Below are positions 93-63,771 of a stretch of 64,000 nt of DNA, piece by piece; position 1 is the first letter of the stretch; every line of letters starts with the position of its first letter. This DNA is from a virus. Position numbers and translations under genes: made by a program. Under the pieces are notes generated by a model. It was not told the origin of the DNA. It worked only from the letters and a program-made list of their open reading frames with translations, and made no database searches. The stretch is taken from positions 30,665 to 94,664 of IMG/VR virus record IMGVR_UViG_3300020220_000019; one strand, given 5' to 3'.

Positions 93-773
93 ATGCATAA
101 TTGGTTTAAGTCATCGCAGCAAAATCAAGGATTCGGTGCAGTAATTCCTGGCGCAGCACCACAGTACGAACAAAATACCCAAAATGCACAAGGTGCAAAT
201 CAATCAAATAATCAGCAAGTTTCGCAAACACTAAATGCCTATTCCAGTCAACTTAAAAATATGATTGCATCTTCTGGAATTGCTGGGGCTAAAGATATTG
301 CTGCAATGATCACCTCATTAGGAAAAGCTAATAAAGGTATATTTGAAGCGCTTCCAATGAACAATTTGCCAAACAACATTGGAGGGCAACTTGAGTTTAT
401 AAACGGTCAAATGATAGAAATTTTTAATAATGCAATATCTGGAATCGCCTCTCCTCAACAAGTTAATAATTTAAATGCATTTATAAAACAGAGATACGAT
501 AAAAACTATACCGACACTATAAATATAATTAAGTCTAATCCTGCAACAAAAAAAGCTTCTTCATCATGTGATGATTGCTTTAATCAGAACCAAGGTATGA
601 TGATGGAAAAAATACATCAAATGATACCAATGCTTGAAGAAATGAAAGAAAAAATATCAAATTCTGATAAAATAGAAGGCTGGGAGCTTGAGCACATAAC
701 TACAGCCCATGACGATATATTAGAGGTTTATTCTTATATAAATCAAAAGACAAGAAAAAACATTTCAAGTTAA
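93..773 (+). CDS. N-terminally tagged protein, Q/N-rich then helical
   Basis: A 226-residue protein of unknown function. It opens with MHNWFKSSQ, one form of the N-terminal tag shared by unrelated proteins in this window. Residues about 10-50 are rich in Gln, Asn and Ala and look disordered. A CDDC motif follows at about residue 158. The last 60 residues are charged and helical, with a W-x-x-x-H-I-x-x-A-x-D-D-I pattern and then V-x-x-Y-I. That ending recalls small helical C-terminal domains I have seen in phage proteins, but I cannot name the family. No signal peptide or membrane segment is visible. It is convergent with the methyltransferase gene that ends at 777. Confidence 0.8.
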   Translation: MHNWFKSSQQNQGFGAVIPGAAPQYEQNTQNAQGANQSNNQQVSQTLNAYSSQLKNMIASSGIAGAKDIAAMITSLGKANKGIFEALPMNNLPNNIGGQLEFINGQMIEIFNNAISGIASPQQVNNLNAFIKQRYDKNYTDTINIIKSNPATKKASSSCDDCFNQNQGMMMEKIHQMIPMLEEMKEKISNSDKIEGWELEHITTAHDDILEVYSYINQKTRKNISS

Positions 774-776
774 TTT

Positions 777-1313
777 TTATAACTTTATAAGATAAGAAGG
801 TAGCAGATCTTCTGTCTTTGTCTCTATCTTTAGATTTCTTTTTGCACAAAATTCATTAACTGCTTTTACTACTCCTGGAAATCTTTGAGGATTATAGTCG
901 TGCCCACATATGTATCCACCTTTTTTTAAGGCCTGAAAGCTTCTTTTTAAATCAGAAGCAACAGCTCCATAAGAATGATCAGCGTCTATATACACTGCAT
1001 CTATATGCATAGAAGTTTCTATTGCTTTTTCTAAAAATTCCGTTGTTGTGCATTTGTGTATATGAACATTTTTGCCCCTAAAATAATCTTTAAGTTCACT
1101 TGGAATATTTCTTAAGTCTAGCGTTTTTCTGTTTTTCCCGTCTTTATCTCCAGACACCATAGATTTTGGAAATATGTCAACAAGATGAAGTTCTTTTGGC
1201 TGTGTTAGTTCGAATATTTTTTTAGAAAATTCCCCCTCAAAAACTCCAAGTTCAACCCAAACTAGATTTTTAGGTAAAAGCGATATCATTTTATCTCGAT
1301 CCATTTTTTTCAT
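777..1313 (-). CDS. SAM-dependent methyltransferase, class I (Methyltransf_24-like)
   Basis: A 178-residue protein with a compact Rossmann methyltransferase layout. Motif I is WVELGVFEGEFS at about residues 18-30, an acidic residue ends the next strand (HLVDIFP), and AVYIDADHSYG at about 105-116 is typical of Methyltransf_24 enzymes that act on sugars or small molecules. GGYICGHDYNP follows. Its start lies 23 bases inside the glycosyltransferase-like gene upstream, so the two are probably translated together. That suggests the substrate is a sugar or glycan, which is inference. Met-4 is an alternative start. Confidence 0.75.
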   Translation of the reverse strand: MKKMDRDKMISLLPKNLVWVELGVFEGEFSKKIFELTQPKELHLVDIFPKSMVSGDKDGKNRKTLDLRNIPSELKDYFRGKNVHIHKCTTTEFLEKAIETSMHIDAVYIDADHSYGAVASDLKRSFQALKKGGYICGHDYNPQRFPGVVKAVNEFCAKRNLKIETKTEDLLPSYLIKL

Positions 1314-2007
1314 ACCTTTCTATAAATTTTTTCATTCTTTCATATTTGTCTTTCATATTACCCGTAAATCCGCAAAAATGAAAAACGCTTTTATTTTCTT
1401 GCTTTTCAGTAACATGCAATTGAACCATTCTTGTCAAGTTGTTAAAAAGTATTTTTTTCTTTAAACAATTAAAAATCCAATAGTTAAAACATGTTTGCTC
1501 AGTACAGGCCTGCTGTATCGTATTAAAATTTTTATTTTTTATTCTATCACATATGTTACTTATCTCTATCAAAACATCTTTTTTTTTGAAAGCAAAAGTC
1601 CCAGCATTAAATCCATTTATTTTTGACATTTCTTTTTTTTCTTCTTCGCTTGATAAACTAAACATAAACCATGGAGATGCCATCTGTTGACTTTCACATA
1701 CAACTGAATTATCATATTGCCCAAACATGTTTTTAATTTTTTCATTAAATAATATATCACTATCTAAATATAGATAGCCATCATATCCGTTTGGTAATTT
1801 TTTTGTGTACTTTGACCACCCTATATAGCTACTATTATTATCATCAAATATTATATCAAAATTAGACTTTAAATTTTTATTATTTGAAACTATACAAAAA
1901 TCAAAAATCGACGCATCATTATTGTTTATTATGCTTTCATAAAGATATGCTATGCACTCTTCTGCGTAATCAGTAAAATCAGATACAGTGTATACCAAGT
2001 ACTTCAT
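1291..2007 (-). CDS. glycosyltransferase-like protein (GT-A fold, DxD)
   Basis: A 238-residue protein. MKYLVYTVSDF starts a first Rossmann strand, and GYLYLDSDILF near residue 75-85 carries a DxD-type metal and nucleotide-sugar motif, as in GT8-like enzymes. Later residues include a CGF segment close to the C-terminus. Its start MKYLVY is close to MKYLIY of the GT at 7030-7824, so the two may be distant paralogues. It overlaps the methyltransferase downstream. The donor and acceptor sugars cannot be read from the sequence. Confidence 0.7.
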   Translation of the reverse strand: MKYLVYTVSDFTDYAEECIAYLYESIINNNDASIFDFCIVSNNKNLKSNFDIIFDDNNSSYIGWSKYTKKLPNGYDGYLYLDSDILFNEKIKNMFGQYDNSVVCESQQMASPWFMFSLSSEEEKKEMSKINGFNAGTFAFKKKDVLIEISNICDRIKNKNFNTIQQACTEQTCFNYWIFNCLKKKILFNNLTRMVQLHVTEKQENKSVFHFCGFTGNMKDKYERMKKFIERYEKNGSR

Positions 2008-2589: not shown

Positions 2590-3222
2590 TTACTTTTTAC
2601 TGGCTAAAAAACCTTTAAGATTAGGACAATCATCGATACTATTTAAAATTCTTTTGTTCAATCTTAATGCCCTAATAGATTCTTTATTGACTTTTGAAAA
2701 ATCAAAATTTATTTCACACATAATTTTTACAACTTCTATTATGTTTGTGCCTTTTAACAGTACTAAATTAATCCAATCTAATGGTAAAATTTCTAATATA
2801 TTTTTAAAGTCGGTTTTATTTTTTGTTTTAATATTATTCGTATAAGGTGCTGTAAACCGATCTGGATGTGTAAAGTTTTTGTATGAATATGCATTTCCTA
2901 TTGCTTCTAATAGTGCCATTGGATTGTGTAACAAATAATCAATAATTATTCCAACTGGAATATTTTGAATCGGCATCGATGATTGAAGTAAATAAACCAT
3001 CATGCTTAAATTTTTATACCTAGAATGATTAAATATACTATTAAGTTCAGCTATTACATATAAATTTTTTTTATTTAAATCTATATATAGATTTTTATCT
3101 ATTTTTTTATTTTTAATTATTTTAGCGACATACGTGTTTCTCAAATTGTCAACAAGAATACTGGCTTTTGTCGCTGGTATTTTATTTGACGCAAATCTAT
3201 GTAGATTGAATGGTTTTTTCAT
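2590..3222 (-). CDS. hypothetical protein with KPFNLHRF start
   Basis: A 210-residue, mostly helical protein of unknown function. Its start MKKPFNLHRFASNK resembles MKFNLKKFNLNK (11956-12354) and MKFNLSRYNRTK (57968-58477), a second possible N-terminal sequence theme in this genome. No enzyme motif or membrane segment is obvious. It lies between two other leftward genes with short spacers. Confidence 0.6.
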   Translation of the reverse strand: MKKPFNLHRFASNKIPATKASILVDNLRNTYVAKIIKNKKIDKNLYIDLNKKNLYVIAELNSIFNHSRYKNLSMMVYLLQSSMPIQNIPVGIIIDYLLHNPMALLEAIGNAYSYKNFTHPDRFTAPYTNNIKTKNKTDFKNILEILPLDWINLVLLKGTNIIEVVKIMCEINFDFSKVNKESIRALRLNKRILNSIDDCPNLKGFLASKK

Positions 3223-3238: not shown

Positions 3239-3757
3239 TTACACTGGCTCGTATGTCAACTCAAACATTTTACGTCTAACTCTATAGTATTTGTTTTCAT
3301 CTTCTTTTATTATGTAGTCTCCAGGTTTAAGCCTCATTTTTTCTCCCCATGAAGCAGTAAACATTATTTCTTCTTGTCCTGTATACTTTGCAGCCATCCT
3401 GGTAGACTGCTCAGGAGAAACGCTTTCACCAATCTCTCCAGAATAGTTCTTTTTAAATTTTTCTTGTTTTACTACATATTTTTCATGCGCAGGCCCGGAT
3501 ACGATTATATCTCCATTCTTTGCCATATTTTGTGTTTCTTCCTCACCTTCGTCCGGAAATTGAGTAACTATAAGATTCTGATCTTTGTCGTTTACTCCAT
3601 AGCTCAAAGCTGGCATTTTACTTACGTCTCCATTAATTATTTGATAAAAAACATAATTAAGTGGCTTCTTTTTTGTTGTCTTAAACTCTACGCTTTCAAC
3701 AAAAGACTTTAATTTTTCATCTCCAGATTCTGCTGACTTCAAAAACCAATTTTTCAT
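3239..3757 (-). CDS. tagged protein with two PGDY-like repeats
   Basis: A 172-residue protein that starts with the tag form MKNWFLKSAESG. The rest contains two copies of one beta-rich unit. The first is NGDIIVSGP...YVVKQEKFKKNYSGE (about residues 82-110). The second is PGDYIIKED...YYRVRRKMFELTYEPV (about residues 144-172). Each follows the pattern G-D-[IY]-I-x(6-9)-Y-x-V-x(3-4)-F-x-x-x-Y. Similar single PGDY-type units occur in phage and bacterial proteins of unknown function. No catalytic residues are apparent. Confidence 0.7.
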   Translation of the reverse strand: MKNWFLKSAESGDEKLKSFVESVEFKTTKKKPLNYVFYQIINGDVSKMPALSYGVNDKDQNLIVTQFPDEGEEETQNMAKNGDIIVSGPAHEKYVVKQEKFKKNYSGEIGESVSPEQSTRMAAKYTGQEEIMFTASWGEKMRLKPGDYIIKEDENKYYRVRRKMFELTYEPV

Positions 3758-3881: not shown

Positions 3882-4592
3882 CTACCATATTATGTCTTCA
3901 ACTAATGGTAATTTTTCATATATATTGAACCAATTTTTATATTTATTTTCTATTTTTTTAAACAAATCAGGATGGTTGTTTTTGAAATTTATATAGTTTG
4001 AATTTCTTTTTTTAGGTTCAAAATGAAAATCTCTTTTAAGCCATGAGCATATTTTTTCTTTTCCAGATTTTAATATTTCATCATATTTTATAAGCCTCAC
4101 AGAAACATTTTTAATTGGTACTTTTCTCCAAGACATATAGTGCTCCTTAAAGTCCAAAAGTACATTATTGTCTTCTGTGTATCTAGATAGATATTCAGCC
4201 GTAAGGTCTTCGTCATTTTTTTTTGTAGCATTTTTTAATTCATAGTTAACCCATTTTAAAAAACTAGAATTACTAAACGCGTTTATGTATTTTTCATTAC
4301 ATGAATTTTCATATTCATATATTAAAAGCGGTATCAAATTTCTTCTTGACAATGATATGATTTGATCATATGGGTTTCCATATATGTATAAAATTTTAGT
4401 ATTTTTTGGGAACTTCATTTTTTTTAAGAATGAAGACTTTACATGTTTTTTTACACATACACAGCCAGTTACACGCTCACATTTTGATCCATATCCAAGT
4501 TGATCAAAAAAAACTGAGGATCCACACCCTCCTTGAGAAACTATAAAAACAGATGGACATCTCATATTTTTTACATTAATTAAACAATTCAA
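3882..4592 (-). CDS. sulfotransferase-like P-loop protein
   Basis: A 236-residue protein. FIVSQGGCGSSVFFDQL near the N-terminus resembles the 5'-phosphosulfate loop that binds PAPS in sulfotransferases. YIYGNPYDQIISLSRR at about residues 90-105 resembles the 3'-phosphate motif (R/N-x-P-x-D-x-x-x-S). The length is within the lower range of the family. The start overlaps the CCA enzyme gene by 17 bases, and Met-10 (MRCPS) is an alternative start. With the neighbouring glycosyltransferases it could modify a surface glycan. The assignment rests on two motifs only. Confidence 0.5.
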   Translation of the reverse strand: MNCLINVKNMRCPSVFIVSQGGCGSSVFFDQLGYGSKCERVTGCVCVKKHVKSSFLKKMKFPKNTKILYIYGNPYDQIISLSRRNLIPLLIYEYENSCNEKYINAFSNSSFLKWVNYELKNATKKNDEDLTAEYLSRYTEDNNVLLDFKEHYMSWRKVPIKNVSVRLIKYDEILKSGKEKICSWLKRDFHFEPKKRNSNYINFKNNHPDLFKKIENKYKNWFNIYEKLPLVEDIIW

Positions 4593-6171
4593 GTAAATAT
4601 TCTTTTGCTTGCTCTTCGTTAGTTACAGATCCATTGTCCTGTGCTTCTAAAAGTGTTTTTTGCATATCTGCTATGTATCCACTTTTAGGATCTTTCATTG
4701 GAAACAATTTCATTATTTGATTGCCATTTAAAATAGGTTTTTTGCCCACTTTTTCTCTTTCTTTTAAGAACTCTTCTATTTTACTTATAGACTTTTTCTT
4801 TTGCTCTATTTCTTCAAGTTCTTTTTCATCTATTTTTCCCTTGCCCATAGTATCTGCAATTGAATGGACAAACACAAGTTTCCAAAGAGACTCTTTTATT
4901 TCATCATCAATAGGCAAACTTTCAAATCTTCTAATAAAATTTCCGATTGACTTGTTGCTCAAATCAATAAAAGAGTGCGGTATCATGTGGCTCTCTACTA
5001 TTGACTTTACTATATTTCTGTCCGCGCCAAAACCAAGTCTTTTAAGTATTTCTTCGGCAATCTCTGCTGAAACATTTTCATGTCCATGATAGCTTGATTG
5101 AGATGGGTCTTTTTTACTTGGTTTTTCTATTGAAGGATCCATTTTGCCAAAATCATGAAAAAGAGCAGCAAGTACTGCAAGATATCTTTCTCTATCAGAG
5201 AATCCATTTTCTCTCATGATCCTATCAAGATTTTCAACAACTAAAATTGTGTGGTTAAGTAAGTTTAATTTATGGTGCTTGGTGTTTTGATCCATGGTTA
5301 TTGGCTTAAATGAGTCAAGTCTTTCACTTGAAAAAACGGGTAAATAAAGTCCGCTTTGCAAAAGCAATCTAATAGAATCTGACGGTCTTTCTCCCTTTAT
5401 TATTTTTTCTATCTCTACTTTTGCTCTTTCTGGTGAAACTTTTTTTCTGTATGCATCGTGTAATTCTTTCATTGATAGAGCAGAAAGCAAAGAATCATCA
5501 AGTTTAAAACCAGGCATTTTAGATACAAATCTTATCGCCCTAAGCGCTCTCAGCGGATCTTCTATTAATGTCTCTAGTGGGCTTATTGGTGTTTTCAGTA
5601 CCTTGCTTTTAAGATCATCAAATCCCCCAGTGTAATCTTCTACTTCTCTTGTATCTAGATTGTAGTATAGAGAATTTATTGTAAGATCTCTTCTTTTTGC
5701 GTCTTCAGATGGGCTGTCAGTTGCTCTTATTAAGGGAATTCTACTTTCTTCAGAATACACTTCTGTTCTCATTGGAACAAATTCAATTTTCATACCGAGT
5801 ATATTGATACCACCAACCTGCAAGCCTGCACTTTTTTCCTTTAAGCCTTTATTTGATTTTTCTAGACTTACAGAATAAGGATCATCTGTTCTTTTTCCGC
5901 CAGTCATATCAAGATCAAATTTTCTTACTGCTTCTGCTATTACTATGCCATTTCCTCCGCTAACTGCTATATCTATGTCATCAGACATATTGCCTAGCAA
6001 CCTGTCCCTAACCCATCCTCCAGCAACCCTAAGAGATACATCACTCGCGTATTTGCTACGTGCAGATCTTATTATGTTAAAAATATTTTCTTCATTTGAA
6101 GTAAGAGTTATGTGTTTGTCTTCTTCAGTATTTGTTTCAGATATTTTAATGTGTTTATACCAATTTTTCAT
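4576..6171 (-). CDS. cca: CCA-adding tRNA nucleotidyltransferase with HD domain, tagged
   Basis: A 531-residue class II CCA-adding enzyme or poly(A) polymerase homologue. It shows GGWVRDRLLG at residues 51-60, the catalytic D-D-I-D-I-A at 64-69, RRDLTINSLYYN and DPLRALRAIRFV in the head and neck, and then an HD phosphohydrolase domain with LFHDFGK near residue 340 and HENVSAEIAEEIL. The tRNA genes that I could delimit in this window do not encode the 3' CCA, so the enzyme could mature them. The protein begins with the shared tag (MKNWYKHIK) on a roughly 25-residue extension ahead of the catalytic domain. The tag on an RNA enzyme is unexplained. Confidence 0.92.
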   Translation of the reverse strand: MKNWYKHIKISETNTEEDKHITLTSNEENIFNIIRSARSKYASDVSLRVAGGWVRDRLLGNMSDDIDIAVSGGNGIVIAEAVRKFDLDMTGGKRTDDPYSVSLEKSNKGLKEKSAGLQVGGINILGMKIEFVPMRTEVYSEESRIPLIRATDSPSEDAKRRDLTINSLYYNLDTREVEDYTGGFDDLKSKVLKTPISPLETLIEDPLRALRAIRFVSKMPGFKLDDSLLSALSMKELHDAYRKKVSPERAKVEIEKIIKGERPSDSIRLLLQSGLYLPVFSSERLDSFKPITMDQNTKHHKLNLLNHTILVVENLDRIMRENGFSDRERYLAVLAALFHDFGKMDPSIEKPSKKDPSQSSYHGHENVSAEIAEEILKRLGFGADRNIVKSIVESHMIPHSFIDLSNKSIGNFIRRFESLPIDDEIKESLWKLVFVHSIADTMGKGKIDEKELEEIEQKKKSISKIEEFLKEREKVGKKPILNGNQIMKLFPMKDPKSGYIADMQKTLLEAQDNGSVTNEEQAKEYLLELFN

Positions 6172-9265: not shown

Positions 9266-9937
9266 TTAACTTTCAGAATAATCTAAACTATTATATTTCA
9301 AACTGTTTAAAAATTCTTTTACTATCATTTCAAATATCGCTGAATATTCAGCAATTTTTTTTGTCTTAAAAGAAATTTCTTCTACTACTTCTTTAAAAAC
9401 TCCTAGTATATTTTTTTCTTCATTCTCGTAAACAGATAATAATTCTTTTACTCTTATATTAGATATTATAGCTGTTTCTCTATCTGCCCATTCATTCTTT
9501 TTATTAATATTGCTAAGAACACCTGAAACAAGCTTTGCTCTTAACATCTTGTAGGAATGCAAAGTTATTTTATCTATAATATTTTTATTTTCCATTAATT
9601 CATTAATGGCCTTGCCGAGTTTAAATGCTTTGCTTAGTTTTAATATCGAATCAATAGCGCTATTTACAGAATGATTAACTTGTTCTGAAATGTGAGGAGA
9701 ATAATATCTTGATATTTTTGTTTCTTTATTCTCAAGATCTTTCTCTCTTTTTTGGGTCAATAAATATTCAGGCTCTGTTTGCACTGTTGGTACAGAATCT
9801 TCGGAAGGCCTACGTCCCCTAATTGTACCTTGTTTGGCATCTTCTTCATACATTTTAGTCTGATGTATGTTTCCCAAAATGTCATCAATGTCACCAATTG
9901 CTGGTCCAGAAAATTGCGCTCTTTTTTTCCAGTTCAT
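9266..9937 (-). CDS. tagged hypothetical protein
   Basis: A 223-residue protein if translation starts at 9937, giving MNWKKRAQFSGPAIGD. I chose this start because it lies two bases upstream of the preceding gene's stop and restores the shared N-terminal tag. The longer open frame to 10027 would overlap that gene by 89 bases. Residues 20-80 are polar; the rest is helical and charged. No family recognised. Confidence 0.65.
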   Translation of the reverse strand: MNWKKRAQFSGPAIGDIDDILGNIHQTKMYEEDAKQGTIRGRRPSEDSVPTVQTEPEYLLTQKREKDLENKETKISRYYSPHISEQVNHSVNSAIDSILKLSKAFKLGKAINELMENKNIIDKITLHSYKMLRAKLVSGVLSNINKKNEWADRETAIISNIRVKELLSVYENEEKNILGVFKEVVEEISFKTKKIAEYSAIFEMIVKEFLNSLKYNSLDYSES

Positions 9938-9938: not shown

Positions 9939-10163
9939 TTAATTGTTGTCTTTCCAAAATGATGGATCATCCCATCCTGAATCAGATGTATTTGATAATG
10001 GTGGTTTTTTACCAATAATTCTTTCAAGGTATCCAGATTTTATTGCTCTTTCTATTTCTTCAGGGGTCATTCCATATGCTAACAACCTTTTCATTAGATC
10101 TTTTGCAAGATCAGAAACGGTCTTTTTATCTTCTTTTTGGGAACATTTTTTGTACCAATGCAT
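9939..10163 (-). CDS. small tagged protein
   Basis: A 74-residue protein starting MHWYKKCSQKED, a variant of the shared tag. A helical middle (VSDLAKDLMKRLLAYGMTPEEIERAI) resembles a short SHOCT-like or helix-turn segment, and the end is DDPSFWKDNN. It ends two bases before the next tagged gene starts, so two tagged proteins are made from one message. Function unknown. Confidence 0.65.
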   Translation of the reverse strand: MHWYKKCSQKEDKKTVSDLAKDLMKRLLAYGMTPEEIERAIKSGYLERIIGKKPPLSNTSDSGWDDPSFWKDNN

Positions 10164-11955: not shown

Positions 11956-12354
11956 TTAATATTCTATATCGTAATCGGGTTCGTCTTCGTCCATGCCTTT
12001 TTGATTAAAGGCCATCTCCTTAATATTTTCATCTTTTTCAAGCTGTTCTTTTATATTATCCATAATATAAGGATCCATGGGCTCTTCTCTTCCTGATTCC
12101 TCAATGCATTTAACCGCTGTTATATTTACTTTTATTTTTATATCTGATTCTGGCGGATCATACCATGTTCCACTGTCATAACTAGCTTGATACGAAATTT
12201 CAGCCTCTCCACTACATTTACATGGTGGGTTTTTTATTTCTAAATCATCAAATTCGTAATTGAATTTTCCAGACCAGCTTGATGCCTGCTTGAGATGATG
12301 ACTTATTTTTTGCCTATTTTTATTGAGATTAAATTTTTTTAGATTAAATTTCAT
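11956..12354 (-). CDS. hypothetical protein, MKFNL start
   Basis: A 132-residue protein. The start MKFNLKKFNLNK matches MKFNLSRYNRTK of the gene at 57968-58477 in position and pattern. A beta-rich middle with CKCSGEAEISYQAS and a Pro/Asp-rich stretch follow, then an acidic end (DEDEPDYDIEY). No function assigned. It runs in the same direction as the LpxH-like gene with an 8-base gap. Confidence 0.6.
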   Translation of the reverse strand: MKFNLKKFNLNKNRQKISHHLKQASSWSGKFNYEFDDLEIKNPPCKCSGEAEISYQASYDSGTWYDPPESDIKIKVNITAVKCIEESGREEPMDPYIMDNIKEQLEKDENIKEMAFNQKGMDEDEPDYDIEY

Positions 12355-13646: not shown

Positions 13647-13811
13647 TTAATTTTTAGGCACGCAGTTTGGCACTTTTTTACCATTTTTATTTTTCATTCC
13701 AACCATTTTGTACCCCTCCCAACACTGCCCTTTATTCTTTTTTGCTTCTTTTATCCATCCAGCTTTTTCCCCTATTTCCAACCACTGATCTTTTGATAAT
13801 TTATATTGCAT
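13647..13811 (-). CDS. 54-residue protein with KDQWL and VPNCVP motifs
   Basis: An open frame of 54 codons preceded by GGAGATTTC. The first half, KLSKDQWLEIGEKAGWI, closely matches KITKDQWLTIGNSAGWL at the start of the unrelated protein at 58494-58994. The second half ends NGKKVPNCVPKN, a motif I have seen in small phage proteins of unknown role. The two matches make this a convincing gene despite its size. Confidence 0.7.
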   Translation of the reverse strand: MQYKLSKDQWLEIGEKAGWIKEAKKNKGQCWEGYKMVGMKNKNGKKVPNCVPKN

Positions 13812-14103: not shown

Positions 14104-15183
14104 TTATGCCCGTGGCTTGCCAGTTGGGGGATTCGTAATGACCGTTCCTGGGTTGACCACGGCTTGCGGGAATGTTGGCATGGTGTACGACCCCCATGCC
14201 GCTAGTACCCGTGACAGGTCGATCCCGTCCACCTTGCCGTCTCCATCCATGTCCTCAAAGACAGGTTTCGTTTGACCCCATCTGGCGAGGATTCGATTTA
14301 GGTCTTCCTGATCAACCACACCGTCCTGATTGATGTCTTCCATCTTGGCAGACAACTTGACATGCTGCACCTTATATCCAAAGGGAGTGAGTGCTGCAAC
14401 AAGGTTTGCGAAGGTAGCCTTGCTGACCGATTGACCACCGTACTCCAATCCAACAAAGACTGTGTCTCCGTATGCGTCTCGCACCATCACAGGTGAACCC
14501 GAGTCGCCAGCAAAGATAGCGAGTGCTCCGTTCCTGAACGCCCCATCGTTGATGCCATCCAAGCATGCGTTGAAGTTGTACCCTCTCGTATCGTTGGTAG
14601 TTGTATCCAAGTATGCGCTCTTAAAGAGTGTCTTGTAGATTTTGCCGTTGCTATCCTTCGTCCACAGCGAAGTGCCTGTGGGAATGTAAAGCGGATCAGC
14701 GATCCTGTTATAGATTTTGACATCGGAATCGGGAAATTCCTTATCAAACTCAAGCATAGTCGTATCAGGGCCGATGTTGAGATAGACGCGAGTGACCTTG
14801 TTTTCATAGAAAGCACCGCTCTTTCCTAGGAACCGAATACCACCTGTGTTGTCATTCGGGTCGGGTCTAGCACCACGGAAGTGTTGGCAGATAAGCGCAT
14901 GCCGTGGCGAGATCAGCACCGCGCCATAGGTGCATTGATTCCAAAAGTTCACGCTGTTTCGATCATATGGAATCGTGAAGAAAATATTGTTGAAACTATT
15001 GTTTGGAATGTTGTTGCAGAAGTTTCGATGGAGGGCGCTGGTGCCCGACCAGTCAATGTGGTCATATGACTGACACTCTGAGTTGTAACCATTGGGTGCG
15101 ATACCCCCGCTTGTTGGTGTGGCTTGTGTTGGGTAGCGGTACACATCGTGGATGTTGGGTTTGTAGTAGCGCAGTACTGCCAT
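14104..15183 (-). CDS. trypsin-like serine protease with dockerin-type tail
   Basis: A 359-residue protein. GDSGSP at 226-231 holds the nucleophilic serine of chymotrypsin-fold proteases. LISPRHALICQHF at 90-102 is the divergent histidine region (His-95 or His-101), and an aspartate lies near 140-147. Residues 281-332 form two calcium-loop repeats (EDINQDGVVDQEDLNRILARWG and a second EDMDGDGKVDGIDLSRVLAAWG-type unit), as in type I dockerins and the dockerin-like tails common in Planctomycetes. There is no signal peptide. RBS AAGGAG precedes ATG. Base composition is clearly GC-richer than region A, and the gene sits between 41-bp direct repeats, so recent acquisition is likely. Confidence 0.8.
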   Translation of the reverse strand: MAVLRYYKPNIHDVYRYPTQATPTSGGIAPNGYNSECQSYDHIDWSGTSALHRNFCNNIPNNSFNNIFFTIPYDRNSVNFWNQCTYGAVLISPRHALICQHFRGARPDPNDNTGGIRFLGKSGAFYENKVTRVYLNIGPDTTMLEFDKEFPDSDVKIYNRIADPLYIPTGTSLWTKDSNGKIYKTLFKSAYLDTTTNDTRGYNFNACLDGINDGAFRNGALAIFAGDSGSPVMVRDAYGDTVFVGLEYGGQSVSKATFANLVAALTPFGYKVQHVKLSAKMEDINQDGVVDQEDLNRILARWGQTKPVFEDMDGDGKVDGIDLSRVLAAWGSYTMPTFPQAVVNPGTVITNPPTGKPRA

Positions 15184-16104: not shown

Positions 16105-16656
16105 TTAAGCGTCCTTACTTTCCTGTTCATCAAATTTATAAAATAAATCCTTTACCTCTCTGGTGCTCTCATTTTCCTTCCAGGGCATTTTTATTTTTCT
16201 GGTCCTCAGAGGCATGTCTAGTGCGCGGGCAGCCGCAGCGCGAGTTCTACCTCCAACAATAAAGCTTCCCAGACCCTCAGCTTCAACGATGTTTACTGCA
16301 GGATAGTCACCTCTGCCTATACCCACTAAAAGATTGCGAAGATATCCTTCTGGATCTCTTAGTCTTTTCTCTCCCCATTCGCTCTCCGCACTGTCTTCTC
16401 TATTCTCTTTCTTTGCCCATTCTATAAATTTATTAATTCTTTCCTCTTCGGATTCTCCTGTAACTTCTGGAGTATATGTATTCCCTATTCTGTCTAGATC
16501 AACTGGATCGGTGTATCCCACTGGAGATTCTGTCCATATTTTTTCTATTTCTTTGTCCGTGAGTCCGGATGCGACACCACGGTCCCTGTACCACTGAAAT
16601 TCTTCCATAAAATCTTTCATTTCGCTGTAATTAGATGCATTTTTATACCAATTCAT
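16105..16656 (-). CDS. tagged ParB-like protein
   Basis: A 183-residue protein with the tag MNWYKNASNY at its start. The C-terminal half carries YPAVNIVEAEGLGSFIVGGRTRAAAARALDMPLRTRKI (given here only to mark the region at about 117-155). This matches the ParB/sulfiredoxin-like fold core, in which G-G-R-x-R-A-A-A-A binds nucleotide or phosphate. No helix-turn-helix DNA-binding domain is visible, so plasmid-type partitioning is unlikely. Its ATG overlaps the stop of the preceding tagged gene (TAATG). Confidence 0.65.
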   Translation of the reverse strand: MNWYKNASNYSEMKDFMEEFQWYRDRGVASGLTDKEIEKIWTESPVGYTDPVDLDRIGNTYTPEVTGESEEERINKFIEWAKKENREDSAESEWGEKRLRDPEGYLRNLLVGIGRGDYPAVNIVEAEGLGSFIVGGRTRAAAARALDMPLRTRKIKMPWKENESTREVKDLFYKFDEQESKDA

Positions 16657-17105
16657 TATTCATCCTCATCGTCATCCCAGTCTTCATCATCATCCGTCTC
16701 TTCCTCTGGTTCATTCCAGTCTTCTGGAGTTCTCTGCAGTTCTGTATCTAGATCCCATGGTCCGTAGTGCTTGTGCTCGGTAATTTTCTTTCTTACGTCT
16801 GCAAGCGTGTACGACATGTAGCTTCCCTTTTCGTCTGGATTTATGTTTCCAAGGGCGTAATATATTTCTTTTGGTATATCTATACTCTTACCACTGGAGT
16901 GGTCCATTGCAATGCCCTCTTTTGTCTCAACCCAAGCATGAGGAAATCGATGCCCGTATGCACTTCCGCGACCGTGCACCAATGCGTGAACCAGCAAATC
17001 TCCGTTGTCTTTAGGAAAATTCCTCACTAAAAGAAGATTTAATGCCGCTTTAAAGCAGTCTCCGTCTCCTTTTGTCCATTTTCCTGCGCTCTTATACCAA
17101 TTCAT
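16656..17105 (-). CDS. tagged cysteine-peptidase-like protein
   Basis: A 149-residue protein. After the tag MNWYKSAGKW comes GDGDCFKAALNLLL (candidate Cys at about 17), then YGHRFPHAWVETKEG (His at about 57) and MDHSSGK (Asp at about 68). The C-H-D order fits a papain-like or transglutaminase-like fold seen in phage proteins of unknown substrate. The C-terminus is strongly acidic (DDDEDWDDDEDE). It is coupled to the ParB-like gene downstream. Confidence 0.6.
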   Translation of the reverse strand: MNWYKSAGKWTKGDGDCFKAALNLLLVRNFPKDNGDLLVHALVHGRGSAYGHRFPHAWVETKEGIAMDHSSGKSIDIPKEIYYALGNINPDEKGSYMSYTLADVRKKITEHKHYGPWDLDTELQRTPEDWNEPEEETDDDEDWDDDEDE

Positions 17106-18606: not shown

Positions 18607-19524
18607 CTATGCTGGATCGGTGGTTGGATCGAAACCAACACGCTGATTCATTATTTTTTCAGCCATTTCTACAGATGCTGCAAGATTTTCAGGGTGTAAA
18701 ACTTGCCGATCACCCAAGGTTTTTTTGATGAGTGAAAACAGCTCAATGTATCCATCCCTCTCCATCATTTTGAATAGTATGTTACCCCGACCCCAGTTTT
18801 GGCTTATTCTTCCAGGAGCTGCAGGCTGGCTGTAGGCCTCGCCTCTCAAACTTCTTATCCGCTTAATTGCTGAAGCTATCTCACGAGCTTGGGGCCAAAG
18901 CCACTTCCCTAACTCGCTTGGCTTACCTGATTCAAGTGCCTGTCTGCCCACCTTTGCCCAGGACCTTGCCATCCCTCGCAACTCCTCCTCAAGGCGACGG
19001 TACTCTTTGCGTTCCTCAGAACTTCCTAACTCAACTAATTTGCGATAACTACCTGAGGCACCTATCAGAGAGGGCTTCTTCACAAAGCGCCTTTCGGTGG
19101 GGTCGTAAATGGCATCAGCATTGGCACTCTGGGTCCCCACTAACGAATCTGGTGCGATCTTGAACTGGATTGGCCTCTCCTTAAAATACATAGTTTTGTC
19201 AAGATTTTCTATAATCCAATCGTTGATGACCCAAAACCTCCGATCTGTTTTAGGCATGTTGATGAAAACGGTGGTGTCTATGTCGCTCTTGGGGGTGTAT
19301 TGGTAAGTTACTGCTGCTCCAATGACTTCATGATGCGTGATCTTGACCCCGGGATGGGTGGAATCAAGATATTCCTGTATCTGTGCAAGACCCCTGTTGA
19401 TCATCTCAACGACATAATCGCTCATGCGGGTGGAGCCCGGATCAAATACATCGCTCAACTCCTTGGATGGATTGTCTACGATGCCCGCACGCTTCCACCA
19501 GTTGCCCACCGTTCTTGCCGCCAT
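18607..19524 (-). CDS. nucleotidyltransferase-like protein with internal tag
   Basis: A protein of about 305 residues. VIGAAVTYQYTPKSDIDTTVF at about 68-90 is the G-[GSA]-x(8-12)-D-x-D core of the pol-beta-type nucleotidyltransferase fold, with the two catalytic aspartates spaced by one residue. From the ATG at 19524 the start is MAARTVGNWWKRAGIVD, which contains a tag-like NWWKRAG; a GTG at 19545 is an alternative start. The rest is helical. The substrate (tRNA, antibiotic or nucleotide) cannot be told. Confidence 0.6.
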   Translation of the reverse strand: MAARTVGNWWKRAGIVDNPSKELSDVFDPGSTRMSDYVVEMINRGLAQIQEYLDSTHPGVKITHHEVIGAAVTYQYTPKSDIDTTVFINMPKTDRRFWVINDWIIENLDKTMYFKERPIQFKIAPDSLVGTQSANADAIYDPTERRFVKKPSLIGASGSYRKLVELGSSEERKEYRRLEEELRGMARSWAKVGRQALESGKPSELGKWLWPQAREIASAIKRIRSLRGEAYSQPAAPGRISQNWGRGNILFKMMERDGYIELFSLIKKTLGDRQVLHPENLAASVEMAEKIMNQRVGFDPTTDPA

Positions 19525-19646: not shown

Positions 19647-20687
19647 TTAAATCCAAACGTTCTCGGGAGAACCCCGTACCGCAGAGATCATGTTGCGGAT
19701 CCACACCCTCTTCACGTTCGCAACCGACTCATCTGAATCGTATGAACACGGAGATATGTGGACGTTCTCGTAACGACGCAGACTTTCGGTCTCATGCCTG
19801 CCACTCTCCACAGAGTAACCGCGAATCCTGCCCCCGTCCAGAGCATCCTTCAACGCCCCAATGTCAACAATAATGTCCGTTGCAAGATTCACCAGTATCA
19901 GGTCCTTACACATACCCAAAAGCTTCTCCCCTATAAGACCCTCATTGCTCTTGTTCGTATGAGGCTGGTGGCACGGTACGTGGATGCTCACCACGCAAGC
20001 CTCCCTGAATATGTCCTCCAGAGAATCCCCGCCGCCACGCTTCGGATCCACATCGTTGTACATAACACGCATCCCCAAAGCCTCAAGGAATGAACCCACG
20101 CGTGAACCTATGTGTCCCTTACCTATCACCCCTGCAACCTTGCCCTTCAGGTCAAGAGACTTCCTGCACTCCACGTCACGATCCTTCACCACGTCAACAT
20201 ACGCAAGATGACGGTTCCTGGCATGCAAAAGTATCTCCGTAAGTGCTGATTCAGCAACACTTTCTGTCGTAGTGTCAGGAGAATCCTGAAGCACAATACC
20301 AAGCCGCTTCGCAATACCAGGACTAAAGAAGTCCGCGTCAGTCATGTCAACATTAATCCCCTTCAAACCCCGAACACCCGGAAATTTATAAAATACCTCC
20401 GTAAGCTTGTCCAACTTGTTCGGGTCCGGAAAAGGCATCGGATCCATGTTCAACATCAGATAGTCGTAGCCCTCGCAACGCTTACCAAGCTCACGCTCCG
20501 TAATGTGCTTCGTCTGAACCCAATCCACCTGGGCAATCTCACGCAAAGGCTTCAGATCTTCGTCCGTAATGCCCCACATGTCCGGAAGAGACACCATAAG
20601 CACCCTGGGTTTCTTTCCCGAAAGCACCCTGGGTTTCTTTCCCGAAAAATTATCTCGCTCGTCCCTTGCAAATTTCAACCAGTTCAT
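19647..20687 (-). CDS. tagged, probably inactive D-2-hydroxyacid dehydrogenase homologue
   Basis: A 346-residue member of the D-isomer 2-hydroxyacid dehydrogenase family, with the tag MNWLKFARD at its start. The NAD-binding fingerprint is intact (GVIGKGHIGSRVG, 186-198, with Asp near 212-214). The catalytic arginine motif N-x-A-R-G is changed to NLATD (Thr at 270), and the T-P-H histidine near 314 is Cys (SPCSY). Loss of both residues argues against normal dehydrogenase activity; a binding or regulatory role, as in CtBP-like relatives, is possible. A 24-bp tandem duplication repeats GKKPRVLS at 16-31. Confidence 0.75.
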   Translation of the reverse strand: MNWLKFARDERDNFSGKKPRVLSGKKPRVLMVSLPDMWGITDEDLKPLREIAQVDWVQTKHITERELGKRCEGYDYLMLNMDPMPFPDPNKLDKLTEVFYKFPGVRGLKGINVDMTDADFFSPGIAKRLGIVLQDSPDTTTESVAESALTEILLHARNRHLAYVDVVKDRDVECRKSLDLKGKVAGVIGKGHIGSRVGSFLEALGMRVMYNDVDPKRGGGDSLEDIFREACVVSIHVPCHQPHTNKSNEGLIGEKLLGMCKDLILVNLATDIIVDIGALKDALDGGRIRGYSVESGRHETESLRRYENVHISPCSYDSDESVANVKRVWIRNMISAVRGSPENVWI

Positions 20688-47466: not shown

Positions 47467-47485
47467 AATTGACTGAGCAAGTTTC

Positions 47486-48107: not shown

Positions 48108-48137
48108 AGTGTCTCCTTTCCCTTGATTTGAGAACAA

Positions 48138-48317: not shown

Positions 48318-48320
48318 TAG

Positions 48321-48405
48321 TGAGACTGGTGGGACTTGAACCCACAAGACTTTTGAGGTCGGCAGATTTTAAGTCTGCTGCGTATGCCGATTCCGCCACA
48401 GTCCC
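48321..48405 (-). tRNA. tRNA-Leu (TAA)
   Basis: A class II cloverleaf on the minus strand with a long variable arm. Acceptor GGGACTG/CAGTCTC, anticodon stem GCAGA/TCTGC with loop CTTAAAA (anticodon TAA) and T arm GGTTCAAGTCC. No encoded CCA. Confidence 0.88.
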
Positions 48406-57580: not shown

Positions 57581-57979
57581 ATGTACGAATATAAAATTGC
57601 GTCTATAGAAAAAGTTGTGGATGGAGACACCGTTGACTGCACCCTAGATCTGGGATTTGGCATATTTTGTAAGCAGAGAATCAGGCTATACGGGATTGAC
57701 GCTCCTGAAACTCACACAAAAAATCTGAAAGAAAAGTCCATGGGCAAAGAATCCAAAGAATTTCTGGAATCTTGGCTCCAAAAGAACAAAAACAACTTGG
57801 TCATCAATACATTCAAGGACGACAAATATGGCAGACTGCTTGGGGTCATAAGGGAATCGGACGGAGAGGCAATTAATGACATAATGGTGAAGCTTGGCTA
57901 TGCATGGTCATATGACAGCGGAACCAAAGTCAAAGACCTGTCTGATTTGGAGGAGTTGCGCAAGTCTTCAGGATCTTGA
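57581..57979 (+). CDS. thermonuclease-like (SNase) protein
   Basis: A 132-residue protein of the staphylococcal-nuclease family. VVDGDTVDCTLDLGFG, IRLYGIDAPET and DDKYGRLLGVI supply the catalytic Asp, Arg, Glu and second Arg in family order. No signal peptide is present, so it acts inside the cell or inside the virion. It is bracketed by copies of a neighbouring coding segment. It is convergent with the gene ending at 57968 and overlaps it by 12 bases. Confidence 0.85.
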   Translation: MYEYKIASIEKVVDGDTVDCTLDLGFGIFCKQRIRLYGIDAPETHTKNLKEKSMGKESKEFLESWLQKNKNNLVINTFKDDKYGRLLGVIRESDGEAINDIMVKLGYAWSYDSGTKVKDLSDLEELRKSSGS

Positions 57980-58477
57980 GTTGGTGGCTCTGCGTTCGGA
58001 CTCCCATTGTGCTTGTGACTGAATTCCTGCGTGTGGGTCCTTGAGTAGGTATTTTAGGTGTAGAGCGGATATTTCCGTCCCGAAATCGTGTATTCCTGTC
58101 CATCGTACATACGGGTTTGGGTGGAATGCGGTGAGTACAAGCAGTCTGCCGAATCGTGGTCCGTCACCCTTTGCGGATCTTAATTTATCTTCGGCTTCGG
58201 TTCCCTGTATTTGGAGGATTTCGGATATTCTTTGTGTTCCGGTCTCCTGCTCTTTGCGGATCTCTTCGTGTATTTTTTGTGCGAGTTCGGAGAGGCTATC
58301 TGGGATTTCGTCACCTTCGGGAAAAAGCTTAGTTTCTGCGGCTGCTTCAGCGGGGTTTACGGGACCGTACTCCTCTAGTGCTTCTCTCTCTCCTTCGGGG
58401 TATAGATCGAGCAGAGAGATTTCCTTTCGGAGTGACGCCTCTTTGGTCCGGTTGTACCGTGACAGGTTGAACTTCAT
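57968..58477 (-). CDS. hypothetical protein, MKFNL start
   Basis: A 169-residue protein starting MKFNLSRYNRTKEASLRK. The N-terminus resembles that of the gene at 11956-12354. The second half has GRLLVLTAFHPNPYVRWTGIHDFG, a repeat-like helical pattern (HEAT-type) in which residues near the motif at about 118-128 may bind a partner. Function unknown. Confidence 0.6.
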   Translation of the reverse strand: MKFNLSRYNRTKEASLRKEISLLDLYPEGEREALEEYGPVNPAEAAAETKLFPEGDEIPDSLSELAQKIHEEIRKEQETGTQRISEILQIQGTEAEDKLRSAKGDGPRFGRLLVLTAFHPNPYVRWTGIHDFGTEISALHLKYLLKDPHAGIQSQAQWESERRATNSRS

Positions 58478-58493: not shown

Positions 58494-58994
58494 TTAGATA
58501 CCTGGGACTTCGGTGTCTCCCGTCATTCCTGGACTTCCCATTATATTTTCGCCTGATCCTTTGGGTTTCCTGGGTTTCCTGGGGGTCTTGGGTGTCTTCA
58601 TAGGGAATCCTTCGGGTGAACTTTGTTTACTACTCGGTATGTCACCGAGTGTTGAGCATTCGTGCATAATGAGTATGGAGGCCTTGCATGTATTTGCGAG
58701 TTTTTGTACAAGCTTCTTTCGTTCATCGGGTGTCATTTTGCCCAAATAATCCCTTACTTGCCCGTAGTCATGACTGTTGACGGCATTGAAAAGTTTGCTG
58801 TACTCTGCGGGGAGTATGGGTTCTCCAATTTCAAGTAATGTTGGTAGTTTACGGGTTTGGAATGTTGGGTTGTTTAGTGGGTCTTCGCGGCGTTCCTCAA
58901 GAAGATGGGTACCGAGAAATACGGCCTGCTTGGTGAGCCATCCTGCGGAGTTTCCTATAGTGAGCCATTGATCTTTTGTAATTTTTGTTTTCAT
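58494..58994 (-). CDS. KDQWL-tagged protein with Pro/Lys tail
   Basis: A 166-residue protein starting MKTKITKDQWLTIGNSAGWL, a start that also occurs on the 54-residue protein at 13647-13811. A helical middle (about 65-115) is followed by a low-complexity tail (MKTPKTPRKPRKPKGSG). Function unknown. GGAAACTAATTAAAC precedes the ATG. Confidence 0.6.
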   Translation of the reverse strand: MKTKITKDQWLTIGNSAGWLTKQAVFLGTHLLEERREDPLNNPTFQTRKLPTLLEIGEPILPAEYSKLFNAVNSHDYGQVRDYLGKMTPDERKKLVQKLANTCKASILIMHECSTLGDIPSSKQSSPEGFPMKTPKTPRKPRKPKGSGENIMGSPGMTGDTEVPGI

Positions 58995-61743: not shown

Positions 61744-61751
61744 GGCTTAGG

Positions 61752-62111
61752 TCATTTTTTTGTTGTTATTTTAACGTAACAATAGTATTCCGGTGCAGCA
61801 TCATCAGGCGATATCCCCTTCAGTGCGCAAGCCTCTTCATGCCTTATAAATTTGACGCCGTCAACGGTCTCGTTTTCAGGAATGGTTACGCCGCACTCCT
61901 TGTCTGCGCTGACATCACAGCAAGCCGCCATCGGCATGCCCACCGCAATAAATGGACCGCCTTCAAAATCAACCATGCCCTCTGCTCCCCTTGAGAAGCG
62001 GGAAGAACCCTCAATTATGTATGTTCCTTCGCATATCTTGTGGAGGTGCCTGACTAGGCCGTACCTGGCTTTGAATGTGTGAGGTATTTTGGGACAGATT
62101 TTTTCTATCAT
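61752..62111 (-). CDS. hypothetical protein
   Basis: A 119-residue protein starting MIEKICPKIPHTFKARYGLV. It contains HLHKICEGTYIIEGSSRFSRG and two Cys (MAACCDVS), a beta-rich pattern. Function unknown. Confidence 0.55.
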   Translation of the reverse strand: MIEKICPKIPHTFKARYGLVRHLHKICEGTYIIEGSSRFSRGAEGMVDFEGGPFIAVGMPMAACCDVSADKECGVTIPENETVDGVKFIRHEEACALKGISPDDAAPEYYCYVKITTKK

Positions 62112-62271
62112 TTTCTTAAGACTGCTTTTCAGTGCGAGAAGTTTCTCTTTTGAGGTAACACATTATTTAAGCCCTCTTGTTTTATAATTGACTGCAGTTT
62201 AACAACTGAATATCAACAGGACTATATCGTCAATCTTTGTTCGCTTCTCAAAAAGTAAATAATTTAATAAT

Positions 62272-63771
62272 TCATAAGCGACTGGCCCATGAATCCATTT
62301 TACCCATTTTTATTTTAGCTTGACTTATGGCAACCTTGTACATATTCAACTTGGGCATTCCTATGCTATATGCATGAGCAAAGAATTTTTTTATGTCTAA
62401 GCTTTTGACCGCATCTAGTATCTTTTTTTTGCTGTCAGTCATAAATTCTGTAAATTCCTGTCCATGTCTTTCATACGATTGCTCGGTCACGAAGGATTTC
62501 GTTCCAGCAATACTTCTGTAGGAAGACCATATGATGCCAAGCGTGTCGAAACCAATCAATGTCATTCCTTTACTTTCCATCACTTCTTCCATGTAGAGAT
62601 TGTCTATACTAGAGATGTATATAAGTATCTTTTGCACTGATTCTTTGTCCATTTTTTCATGATTTACCACGAATGGAGAAAGCAAACGCAAAATCATAAG
62701 TGTGGCACTTTGGGGGCTATAGGCATTAAAAATATGCCTGCTTTTCAGTGGCTCCAAACTGTGTTCTTTTTTCTGTATTCCTCCCATCGCAAGGGCAAGT
62801 GAAAAAAGGTTTTGCATTGCTGTTTTGCTCTTGGTTTTCGTGCAAATTTTAATAAGATATTCCATCAGCGTAGATTTTTCTTCGTAGCTGAACTCGCCAG
62901 TTCTACCGGGATCGGGTAGGCCTTTCCCGTGAATATCATATTTTTTACTATCAAAAATTTTAAGCATATGATGACTCAATACTTCTGCAATTGAGTCATT
63001 TATTGTTGCTCCCGGTGACATGTCGAAGAACAGGGCATTCACGCCGTTTCTGCCGTAAGAGGTAAAAGTATTCTTTTTATCATTGCTAAGCATCCAATTC
63101 ATGGCATCGCCACTGCCATTCGGATTTTTGATAAGCCAGTGGAAAGAATCGTTCCTGTACCCCGTAAGCTTAGCTATTTCTAGCTGAATTTTGCTTGAGG
63201 TGTTTTGGTTTTTAAATAATGTTGCGTAGGTTTCCTCTCTGATCATCCATGACATTTCGTTTCGTGAACCACTCGCTTTCTCCCTTTCATTTCTGTCCAA
63301 TTCCCAAAATGCATCTATCATCTCAGTGCTTATGTATTTGCTTGAAATTAACACGACCTGAGAATCCCTTGATCTATTTGGGCTATCTACCGCTAATGGC
63401 ATGTAGGTCTCCATGAACCAATGAGCAAGATTTGCTCTTGTCTCATCGATTATTGAATGACGAGAGTACATCGAGTCTATGCCAAGGTCATCGAGCAAAA
63501 GTTTCTCAAGTGCCCAGTATGGTCCCCAGCTTCCTTGTATTCCCCATGGCTTAGCTTCCTTTCTCATACACCTAGAGAATGCAAGAGGAGCGTATCCAGA
63601 TCGCACAAGTTCAACCAATGACGGATAGTTTCTCAATATATCTTCAGGAAAAAAATCTTGGTAACCTGATTTTTTTCTTAGGTTAATTACAAATTTTGAG
63701 TATGCTAGCAGCTCATCATTTGACATTTCACATTCGGGCGATCCAGTCTGCGCAGATTTGTACCACGTCAT
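62272..63771 (-). CDS. large tagged protein
   Basis: A 499-residue protein starting MTWYKSAQTGSPECEMSND, a clear form of the shared tag. It is largely helical, with no obvious domain motif, and is the largest tagged protein besides the CCA enzyme. Its ATG overlaps the stop of the upstream gene (ATGA), so it is coupled to the truncated gene at 63768. Function unknown. Confidence 0.75.
   Translation of the reverse strand: MTWYKSAQTGSPECEMSNDELLAYSKFVINLRKKSGYQDFFPEDILRNYPSLVELVRSGYAPLAFSRCMRKEAKPWGIQGSWGPYWALEKLLLDDLGIDSMYSRHSIIDETRANLAHWFMETYMPLAVDSPNRSRDSQVVLISSKYISTEMIDAFWELDRNEREKASGSRNEMSWMIREETYATLFKNQNTSSKIQLEIAKLTGYRNDSFHWLIKNPNGSGDAMNWMLSNDKKNTFTSYGRNGVNALFFDMSPGATINDSIAEVLSHHMLKIFDSKKYDIHGKGLPDPGRTGEFSYEEKSTLMEYLIKICTKTKSKTAMQNLFSLALAMGGIQKKEHSLEPLKSRHIFNAYSPQSATLMILRLLSPFVVNHEKMDKESVQKILIYISSIDNLYMEEVMESKGMTLIGFDTLGIIWSSYRSIAGTKSFVTEQSYERHGQEFTEFMTDSKKKILDAVKSLDIKKFFAHAYSIGMPKLNMYKVAISQAKIKMGKMDSWASRL

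Follow-up and report, generated by a model that had tools for sequence, protein, structure and literature searches.

Why should proteins that have nothing else in common begin with the same few residues? The question is raised by a window of 64,000 nucleotides (the whole stretch of DNA analysed here), which covers bases 30665-94664 of the 94,664-base IMG/VR virus record IMGVR_UViG_3300020220_000019. An initial annotation, made from the letters alone, had listed ten N-termini resembling MNWYK on unrelated bodies and proposed, by analogy with phage T4, that they form a packaging or localisation signal. All ten were recovered at their coordinates, with ambiguous starts at 9937 and 19524. Judged from sequence comparisons, this N-terminal tag is probably a prohead-targeting leader, which would take unrelated proteins into the head of a phage-G-like giant tailed phage, be cut at K-x-[A/S] and leave its cargo ready for injection.

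Excess of the tag over chance

Genes were called by a simple procedure (longest frames, start chosen by codon and Shine-Dalgarno score, some starts being overridden by the tag itself), and the record-wide counts cover genes of at least 60 amino acids (aa). In the window's record, 7 of the 140 called genes carry W[YFLKWVIM][KRH] with its first residue at positions 2-5, compared to 0.37 expected from its interior rate (16 in 24,093 positions). This record-wide count shows that the tag is real and far above chance. Over all frames of the window, [NTHSD]W[YFLKWVIM]K gives 13 hits, eight of them directly behind the ATG of a long frame (9937 included); the other five lie near an ambiguous start (19503), in a 57-residue frame (19593) or off plausible starts (4046, 22841 and 33050).

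Across 11 records, of which ten were chosen for holding the exact tag and the window's record by the initial annotation, W[YFLKWVIM]K starts at residue 3 in 6.4% (n = 69) of 1086 genes and at 0.06% in interiors. When gapped three-residue words in the first 14 residues are compared with interior windows (993 genes of 11 records), W-Y-K, N-W-Y and W-x-K-x-A rank first, with up to 299-fold enrichment. A second signature, F-N-L, appears lower in this ranking (15 genes versus 1.05). A collection scan found the exact pattern MNWYKxAQ in 27 stretches of 23 viral contigs, three of which (L026, L029 and L035) have no tagged frame of at least 60 aa and may be chance. The bacterial and archaeal genome collection holds it in four stretches, which is within our own chance estimate. 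In 24 records, 23 of them chosen by a longer form of it, the shorter pattern ATGAAYTGGTAYAAR matches 92 times, versus 0 for the reversed control. Tagged genes also cluster: 48 adjacent tagged pairs occur in 11 records, whereas 2000 shuffles average 10.2 and never exceed 20. Among the literature titles and abstract beginnings listed, none describes such a tag, and the papers in which the string MNWYK occurs are irrelevant ones.

Composition of the tag

The composition was analyzed in 114 tagged genes of 20 records, without G006, a near-duplicate of G013. Residues 7 and 8, which played no part in selecting these genes, carry 1.94 and 1.63 bits (A/S/I and Q/K, respectively), residues 9-16 at most 0.36 bit and the upstream bases at most 0.17 bit. 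The Tyr, Lys, Ala and Gln codons of the tag vary much as they do in gene bodies, and the encoded residues change conservatively (Y/F/L, K/R, A/S). Only Asn at position 2 shows a codon preference, being encoded by AAC in 48 of 100 cases compared to 24% within the same genes. Since conservation stops after residue 8, the upstream DNA is unconserved and the codons vary, selection acts on the peptide. W3 is the only residue common to all 92 aligned tagged proteins, and the sub-form MNWYKxI.. continues with [KR]x[AS] in 16 of 21 cases. As read from these alignments, the tag is the peptide NWY[KR] plus, mostly, K-x-[A/S].

Detachable and exchangeable leaders

The initial annotation had suggested aligning relatives in other phages, and such alignments show the tag gained, lost and swapped on the same body. 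Comparison across records gave 39 homologue pairs that include a tagged protein, with both partners tagged in 17 and a single one in 22. In 13 of these 22 the alignment comes to within 30 residues of each start, and a false tag underlies one. A P-loop kinase body stands behind MNWYKKAQ in G001 and begins MNNSKTLYIMRG in G003. The CCA enzyme is tagged in the window and in G010 and untagged in G001 and G013, and the dehydrogenase carries MNWLKFA, MNWLKWA, MWYRIAQ or MKNIFNIYQNSLIKSA. A further body in the window (11956..12354, -) has the alternative leader MKFNLKKFNLNKNRQKISHHLKQA, whereas its blastp relatives in G003 and G007 carry MNWYKSA. In this swap (MKFNL...HHLKQA versus MNWYKSA), K22 and A24 are invariant in the alignment, the part upstream of them differing by 17 residues. 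One and the same body can thus be tagged, untagged or headed by a different leader (MKFNL..., MK[IL]xKxA), with K-x-[A/S] at the leader end usually kept, as far as the sequences tell. Positional enrichment together with these tagged and untagged homologues rules out a chance motif or one that is integral to each fold.

A protein family of the head module, encoded near the protease gene, offers the strongest single test. A scan found 54 loci, from which 45 leaders were parsed, 36 of them distinct. The body is orthologous throughout and the leaders are mixed (MEIKTA, MTNILKYA, MVFNLSKQA, MSNLVYNLNKVA, MSWLKEA, MIKLAA...). [KR]x[AS] is present in 35 of the 36 distinct leaders, compared to 13% of equally long interior windows. 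In some, such as MGKFNLNKQA with its following linker of ~20 residues, K-x-A goes with the leader and not the body. More generally, [hyd][hyd][KR]x[AS] (hyd, a hydrophobic residue) lies at residues 3-7 in 105 of 1410 deduplicated genes (G006 again omitted) versus 2.4 expected, and in 28 of the 1084 genes without W in the first 14 residues versus 1.8 expected. What the leader types most often have in common is, on this evidence, K-x-[A/S] behind the NW part, and MKFNL..., MK[IL]xKxA or W..G..GW[LMVI]KxA take the place of NW. The initial annotation was right in seeing a modular N-terminal address on unrelated bodies; its NWxK motif covers one leader flavour only.

Bodies behind the tag

Of 105 tagged proteins, 92 were aligned and scanned, 13 being excluded as doubtful tags or close paralogues. 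They match 37 Pfam families; the 25 commonest include GNAT, CCA/PolyA polymerase, 2-hydroxyacid dehydrogenase, AAA_33 kinase, G6PD, Tad6, cREC_REC, ART-PolyVal, Sigma70_r4, LysM, 2H phosphoesterase, PcfJ and DnaJ. Single tagged examples are ART-PolyVal in G005 (1.2e-17), cREC_REC in G001 (6.1e-20), PcfJ in G002 (1.3e-9) and LysM in G003 (1.4e-11). In G010, the anti-Thoeris domain Tad6 starts at residue 19, behind MNWYKQAQ (E 4.5e-35). The phage collection has a single relative of this protein, a segment of a larger phage NCTB protein whose match begins at query residue 21; the tag is therefore not part of the Tad6 body. Most of the 50 tagged proteins that were searched singly matched nothing, none matched two unrelated families at E <= 0.001, and the CCA enzyme and the dehydrogenase among them matched their own usual domains.

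Terminase, ribonucleotide reductase, dUTPase, helicase, methyltransferases and HNH nucleases are not among the 25 commonest of 89 families of the 92 tagged proteins, whereas all of them are among the 25 commonest of 110 families of an untagged control (92 of 493 proteins). This contrast is coarse, as it compares the 25 commonest families of each set, and the random control includes one protein beginning MNWHEVV. The ART-PolyVal, Tad6, cREC_REC, PcfJ, DnaJ, GNAT and LysM bodies would fit injected effectors.

Link to the capsid and the head maturation protease

Twelve of the 25 tag-bearing records, G006 and G013 both counted, match the capsid family phrog_2522, and the identical 12 match the head maturation protease family phrog_18299. 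G001, for instance, encodes a phage-G-type capsid (phrog_2522, 2.1e-66), a protease domain within an 1842-aa protein (phrog_18299, 4.4e-15), a portal and a terminase. The alignment covers eight of the 12 protease polyproteins, the others being those of G006 (broken, near-duplicate), G009, G020 and G022. K-x-A is found at the N-terminus of all eight, in the form [hyd][KR]xA in seven and as MAIDKKA in the eighth. [hyd][KR]xA comes again before the protease domain in all eight, and once more at about residue 1170-1320 in seven. In G013 and G006, the gene adjoining the capsid gene begins MNWYKKAQ, and other genes of the capsid module begin MKLVRKA, MKIIKIA, MKLIRTA, MKIMKAA and MKIVKTA.

The protease polyprotein of G010 (L075:1732-8652; G010:58732-65652, -) holds a long, intein-like insertion right after GSSMG, beginning CFTPDMRVLMNDGTYRPISEMQAGD. 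The portal of G001 (G001:19367-22753; L038:370-3753, -) measures 1128 aa, and its C-terminal part matches HNH endonuclease families, possibly as an intein or a fusion.

Interpretation and rival explanations

In the mechanism that we propose, the aromatic or hydrophobic stretch (NWY, FNL, KIY...) probably serves as the binding site for the head core or scaffold, and the leader would send its cargo into the growing prohead. K-x-[A/S] is probably the cut site, where the head maturation protease would remove the leader after A or S. The cargo would then travel in the virion and be injected with the DNA. The initial annotation is thus supported in part: its T4 analogy fits a modular address that is gained, lost and exchanged, loses conservation sharply after residue 8 and co-occurs with capsid and protease in 12 records; packaging and cleavage are what we infer from these.

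Several observations weigh against a cleaved, head-targeting leader. Neither phrog_2522 nor phrog_18299 is matched in the window's record, in G024 (a longer twin record) and in 11 other tag-bearing records; these 13 may be fragments, have divergent head genes or, in the case of G014, G017 and G023, owe their inclusion to one chance tag match. [hyd][KR]xA recurs throughout the protease polyproteins (138 in 15,591 residues), and the second K-x-A of the protease could be part of its fold. A G001 protein at 52300, whose end matches a tail-lysozyme family, begins MKIIRIS, which does not suit head-only targeting. A loose W-tag pattern catches 153 genes, and in 38 of them residues 1-16 hold no [hyd][KR]x[AS]; false tags account for part of these, but others are true (e.g., MNWYKNILTS). 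With such true tags and the tail-lysozyme protein, the rule is not clean. In genes without a W tag, K-x-A is weakly raised near the start (0.0098 per position at residues 3-10 versus 0.0053 inside), and K-x-E rises about equally (0.0080 versus 0.0048); L-x-E, S-x-E and [AG]-x-E show no excess there (L-x-E 0.0052 versus 0.0060). Because K-x-E rises about as much, the case for K-x-A rests on the swap and protease comparisons and not on this count. AlphaFold models of two window proteins favour a detachable leader only weakly, as both were built from three-sequence alignments with one untagged or shorter row. In the protein at 16656, residues 1-8 have pLDDT below 50, a more confident fold starts at about residue 10 and residues 3-6 are drawn as a short helix of low confidence; in the dehydrogenase at 20687 the corresponding values are residues 1-23, residue 27 and residues 3-14. 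Finally, phage G, treated below, has no MNWYK tag above control (ATGNNYTGGTWYARR, 1 match; control, 1) and carries another N-terminal tag instead.

The same prohead-targeting leader could also remain uncut, the peptide docking into the capsid or scaffold with K-x-A inside the docking helix. A short, basic and amphipathic motif, modelled twice as a short low-confidence helix, suits this idea, which we nonetheless regard as rather unlikely: K-x-[A/S] holds its place at the leader end while the preceding stretch changes in sequence and length, and its presence before the protease domain in all eight aligned proteases is easier to reconcile with a cut site than with a docking surface. The many enzymes among the tagged bodies (CCA enzyme, dehydrogenase, G6PD, kinases) could instead point to a destination inside the infected cell, such as a replication nucleus or a similar compartment built by the phage, and not to the virion. 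We give this a low probability, since terminase, ribonucleotide reductase, dUTPase and helicase appear among the 25 commonest of 110 families on the untagged side and not among the 25 commonest of 89 on the tagged side, and since K-x-A also begins the head maturation protease and a head-module protein.

LysM and endolysin-like bodies among the tagged proteins could point to a signal directed at the host, for degradation or for membrane or envelope targeting, which would operate once the protein is made and have nothing to do with the virion. This is very improbable: in the cellular genome collection the exact tag stays within the chance estimate, and phages with K-x-A in their head proteases differ in leader type. 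A shared start that matters for translation or at the DNA level (a spread start region, an enhancer or a recombination site) finds some footing in the AAC preference at Asn2 and in the common reading YRYNIMNWLK across the starts at 19593 and 20684 of the window; its probability is close to nil, because the upstream bases are unconserved, the other tag codons vary as elsewhere and the changes are conservative in the protein. By the same unconserved upstream bases and codon variation, a DNA-level repeat was ruled out.

Beyond the prohead-targeting reading itself, we lean slightly towards a wider picture, namely a whole clade of phage-G-like giant phages with a general head-loading peptide code. 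Its interchangeable leaders (NWYKxA, FNLxKxA, MK[IL]xKxA, W..G..GWLKxA and, in phage G, MKRLIKKA) would mostly end in K-x-[A/S], its protease would cut after a small residue and not after glutamate, and effectors (anti-Thoeris proteins, ADP-ribosyltransferases, metabolic enzymes) would have been recruited by gaining a leader.

Tagged genes and alternative leaders in the window

The first tagged gene of the window (93..773, +) encodes a 226-aa protein with the leader MHNWFKSSQ and no convincing Pfam match. Its C-terminal ~55 residues match short proteins of two records (blastp E 1.5e-11 and 1e-10), which begin MTQKNIFKLSS and MKKPIFKLASE. A 172-aa protein (3239..3757, -) begins MKNWFLKSA, which has one extra residue and falls outside [NTHSD]W[YFLKWVIM]K; its G002 homologue begins MNWYKIAQ (blastp E 1.8e-36). 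The initial annotation had called it peptidase-like, but it is rather a PGDYG-domain protein (PF14083, E 1.4e-7, versus only 0.019 for Peptidase_C39). The naming of the CCA enzyme and the dehydrogenase held: the former is a 531-aa CCA tRNA nucleotidyltransferase (4576..6171, -; PF01743, 5.8e-23; HD, PF01966, 1.7e-11) with the leader MKNWYKHIKIS, and the latter a 346-aa D-2-hydroxyacid dehydrogenase (19647..20687, -; PF02826, 1.3e-20) with MNWLKFAR, whose homologues begin MNWLKWAK (G003), MWYRIAQ (L113) and MKNIFNIYQNSLIKSAEG (G002).

A 223-aa protein of unknown function without Pfam match (9266..9937, -) begins MNWKKRAQ from an ATG within a longer frame that opens at TTG 10027. This ATG overlaps the end of the upstream tagged gene, so that the short start suits. 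That upstream gene (9939..10163, -) encodes a 74-aa protein with the leader MHWYKKCSQ and no convincing Pfam match. The 183-aa protein with MNWYKNAS (16105..16656, -) had been called ParB-like, a name without a Pfam match; it has a tagged homologue in G003 (MNWYKRAQ) and untagged ones in G003 and G007. Next to it lies an unknown 149-aa protein with MNWYKSAG (16656..17105, -). A 305-aa protein (18607..19524, -) begins MAARTVGNWWKRAG; its possible start codons are the GTG at 19545 that opens the listed frame, the ATG at 19524 and a GTG at 19509, the last of which would give the alternative leader MGNWWKRAG. No Pfam family scores better than 0.06 for this protein, which had been described as nucleotidyltransferase-like. 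The last tagged gene (62272..63771, -) encodes an unknown 499-aa protein beginning MTWYKSAQ.

As the initial annotation had also observed, the array at 20.9-52 kb holds no tagged protein: no called gene there fits, and the sole fitting frame is a TTG-start one at 22835 (MRSWWKS, 82 aa). Seven tRNA genes (two for Arg and one each for Gln, Lys, Glu, Met and Leu) lie on the minus strand of this region (31579-48405). A look-alike start, MYEYKIAS in a thermonuclease-like frame at 57581, was kept out of the tag set, because we take it to be the native start of the fold, as is usual for the thermonuclease family. Elsewhere in the window (14104-15183, -), two dockerin-like C-terminal repeats of the form DxNxDGxVDxxDLxxxLxxWG stand, by eye, behind a trypsin-like part.

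Leaders of other types also occur. By sequence pattern, two candidate FNL-type leaders are MKKPFNLHRFAS (2590..3222, -) and MKFNLSRYNRTKEAS (57968..58477, -). A putative third N-terminal module is represented by MKTKITKDQWLTIGNSAGWLTKQA (58494..58994, -), with a similar W..G..GW[LMVI] in G003 and G013 by eye, and by MQYKLSKDQWLEIGEKAGWIKEA on a 54-aa frame (13647..13811, -), which matches a G016 frame beginning MQFKISKSSWLQIGCSQGWIKKA (blastp E 8.8e-6). In the approximate form W-x3-G-x3-G[WY][LMVI], this module is seen on different proteins: besides the two of the window, at 6500, 7321, 8230, 31634, 32204, 44527 and 56046 in G003 and at 203613, 206400 and 210815 in G013.

The twin record G024 (IMGVR_UViG_3300020183_000012; 146,719 bases) holds the three window proteins that were searched there at 100% identity. 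Beyond the window end, it has further tagged genes beginning MVDKYSMNWFKISQ, MFFNWYKTAQ, MRKPKPTNWIKRA and MKINWYKTSQ, the last of which adjoins the homologue of the 62272..63771 gene. Homologue scans with single window proteins returned few loci (1, 3 and 1), and the swap-family alignment four.

Phage G and other giant phages

Bacillus (Lysinibacillus) phage G is the closest annotated relative by capsid, with 54.7% identity to that of G001, and has a maturation protease of the same family. The same scan of its 663 genes returned a tag of its own, MKRLIKKA[S]: K-R-L occurs in 20 genes versus 1.1 expected, and R-L-x-K in 26 versus 2.0. It is seen on about 25-30 unrelated proteins (L085-L109), several of which are ART-like by eye (YHGTS motifs); examples are at record positions 11937, 16055, 28218, 35181, 178671 and 245994, and gp13, gp17, gp38 and gp53 are proteins of this type. 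The proteases of phage G (gp19 by position), Tunturi_5 and LR745208 carry [hyd]KxA near the start, again by eye. ATGNNYTGGTWYARR shows no excess in Tunturi_5 (0), LR745208 (1; control, 2), Rctr197k (0), LR745206 (0) or LR756500 (0). In LR745208, two different proteins (L083:18704 and L083:26331) share a longer start, MTTLRSKLIRLAH[EN/SD]P[A/S]LRP[Q/H]LLPLLKEA. For the ribonucleotide reductase at G000:13812-16340 (L008), the nearest counterparts (46-47%) belong to two uncultured phages, LR745206 (635 kb) and LR756500 (462 kb). As relatives with respect to the tag, these two phages were rejected, having 0 tags and no phrog_2522 match.

Significance

Little is known of the proteins that giant phages carry in their heads and inject, since the majority of their genes lack annotation. 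Should the leader prove to be a signal for packaging and processing, a simple search of N-termini would list the injected proteins of uncultured giant phages and point to new anti-defence and host-takeover proteins. A maturation protease family would likewise gain a cut-site rule open to testing (K-x-A/S), and foreign proteins could be loaded into very large capsids with a short portable peptide.

Comparison with known systems

The nearest parallel is the capsid-targeting sequence of T4 (Ip1-3 and Alt; protease gp21), likewise a short N-terminal leader on otherwise dissimilar proteins in a phage with a head maturation protease. The packaging leader is the only part common to Ip1-3 (PMC12373910), T4 leaders measure 10-20 residues (six in Alt) and are cut at ITE (PMC5694885), and injected effectors, among them an ADP-ribosyltransferase and anti-defence proteins, make use of them (PMC5694885, PMC12373910, PMC5512222). 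The present system shares a short leader (6-20 aa) on unrelated proteins (114 tagged genes; 37 Pfam families among 92), an encoded prohead or head maturation protease (12 of 25 tag-bearing records, the window's record and G024 not among them) and a leader-end motif that also lies near the N-terminus of the phage's own protease (eight polyproteins aligned). It differs in the leader end, which in T4 is a glutamate motif (ITE for Alt) and here K-x-[A/S], mostly with Q next; near the starts of genes without a W tag, L-x-E is not enriched. Many more, and more metabolic, bodies are tagged here. The tag would thus work like the T4 sequence without being a member of it, because the glutamate motif is absent.

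In phiKZ-like giant phages (SPN3US, phiKZ), the prohead protease removes N-terminal propeptides from head and ejected proteins, cutting at A-x-E or S-x-E (PMC5694885). Several of these propeptides exceed 100 residues and the cuts follow glutamate, whereas the commonest leader here has 7-8 residues. Polyvalent proteins are another point of comparison, as their ART and ParB-like domains are predicted to be injected (PMC5512222) and one ART-PolyVal protein is tagged here. They fuse 2-15 domains per chain, while the tagged proteins are mostly short and have a leader each; the excerpt of PMC5512222 describes no shared N-terminal tag. If the leader does serve packaging and processing, it would suggest that the strategy of T4 has been reached with unlike leader sequences and applied to many more proteins.

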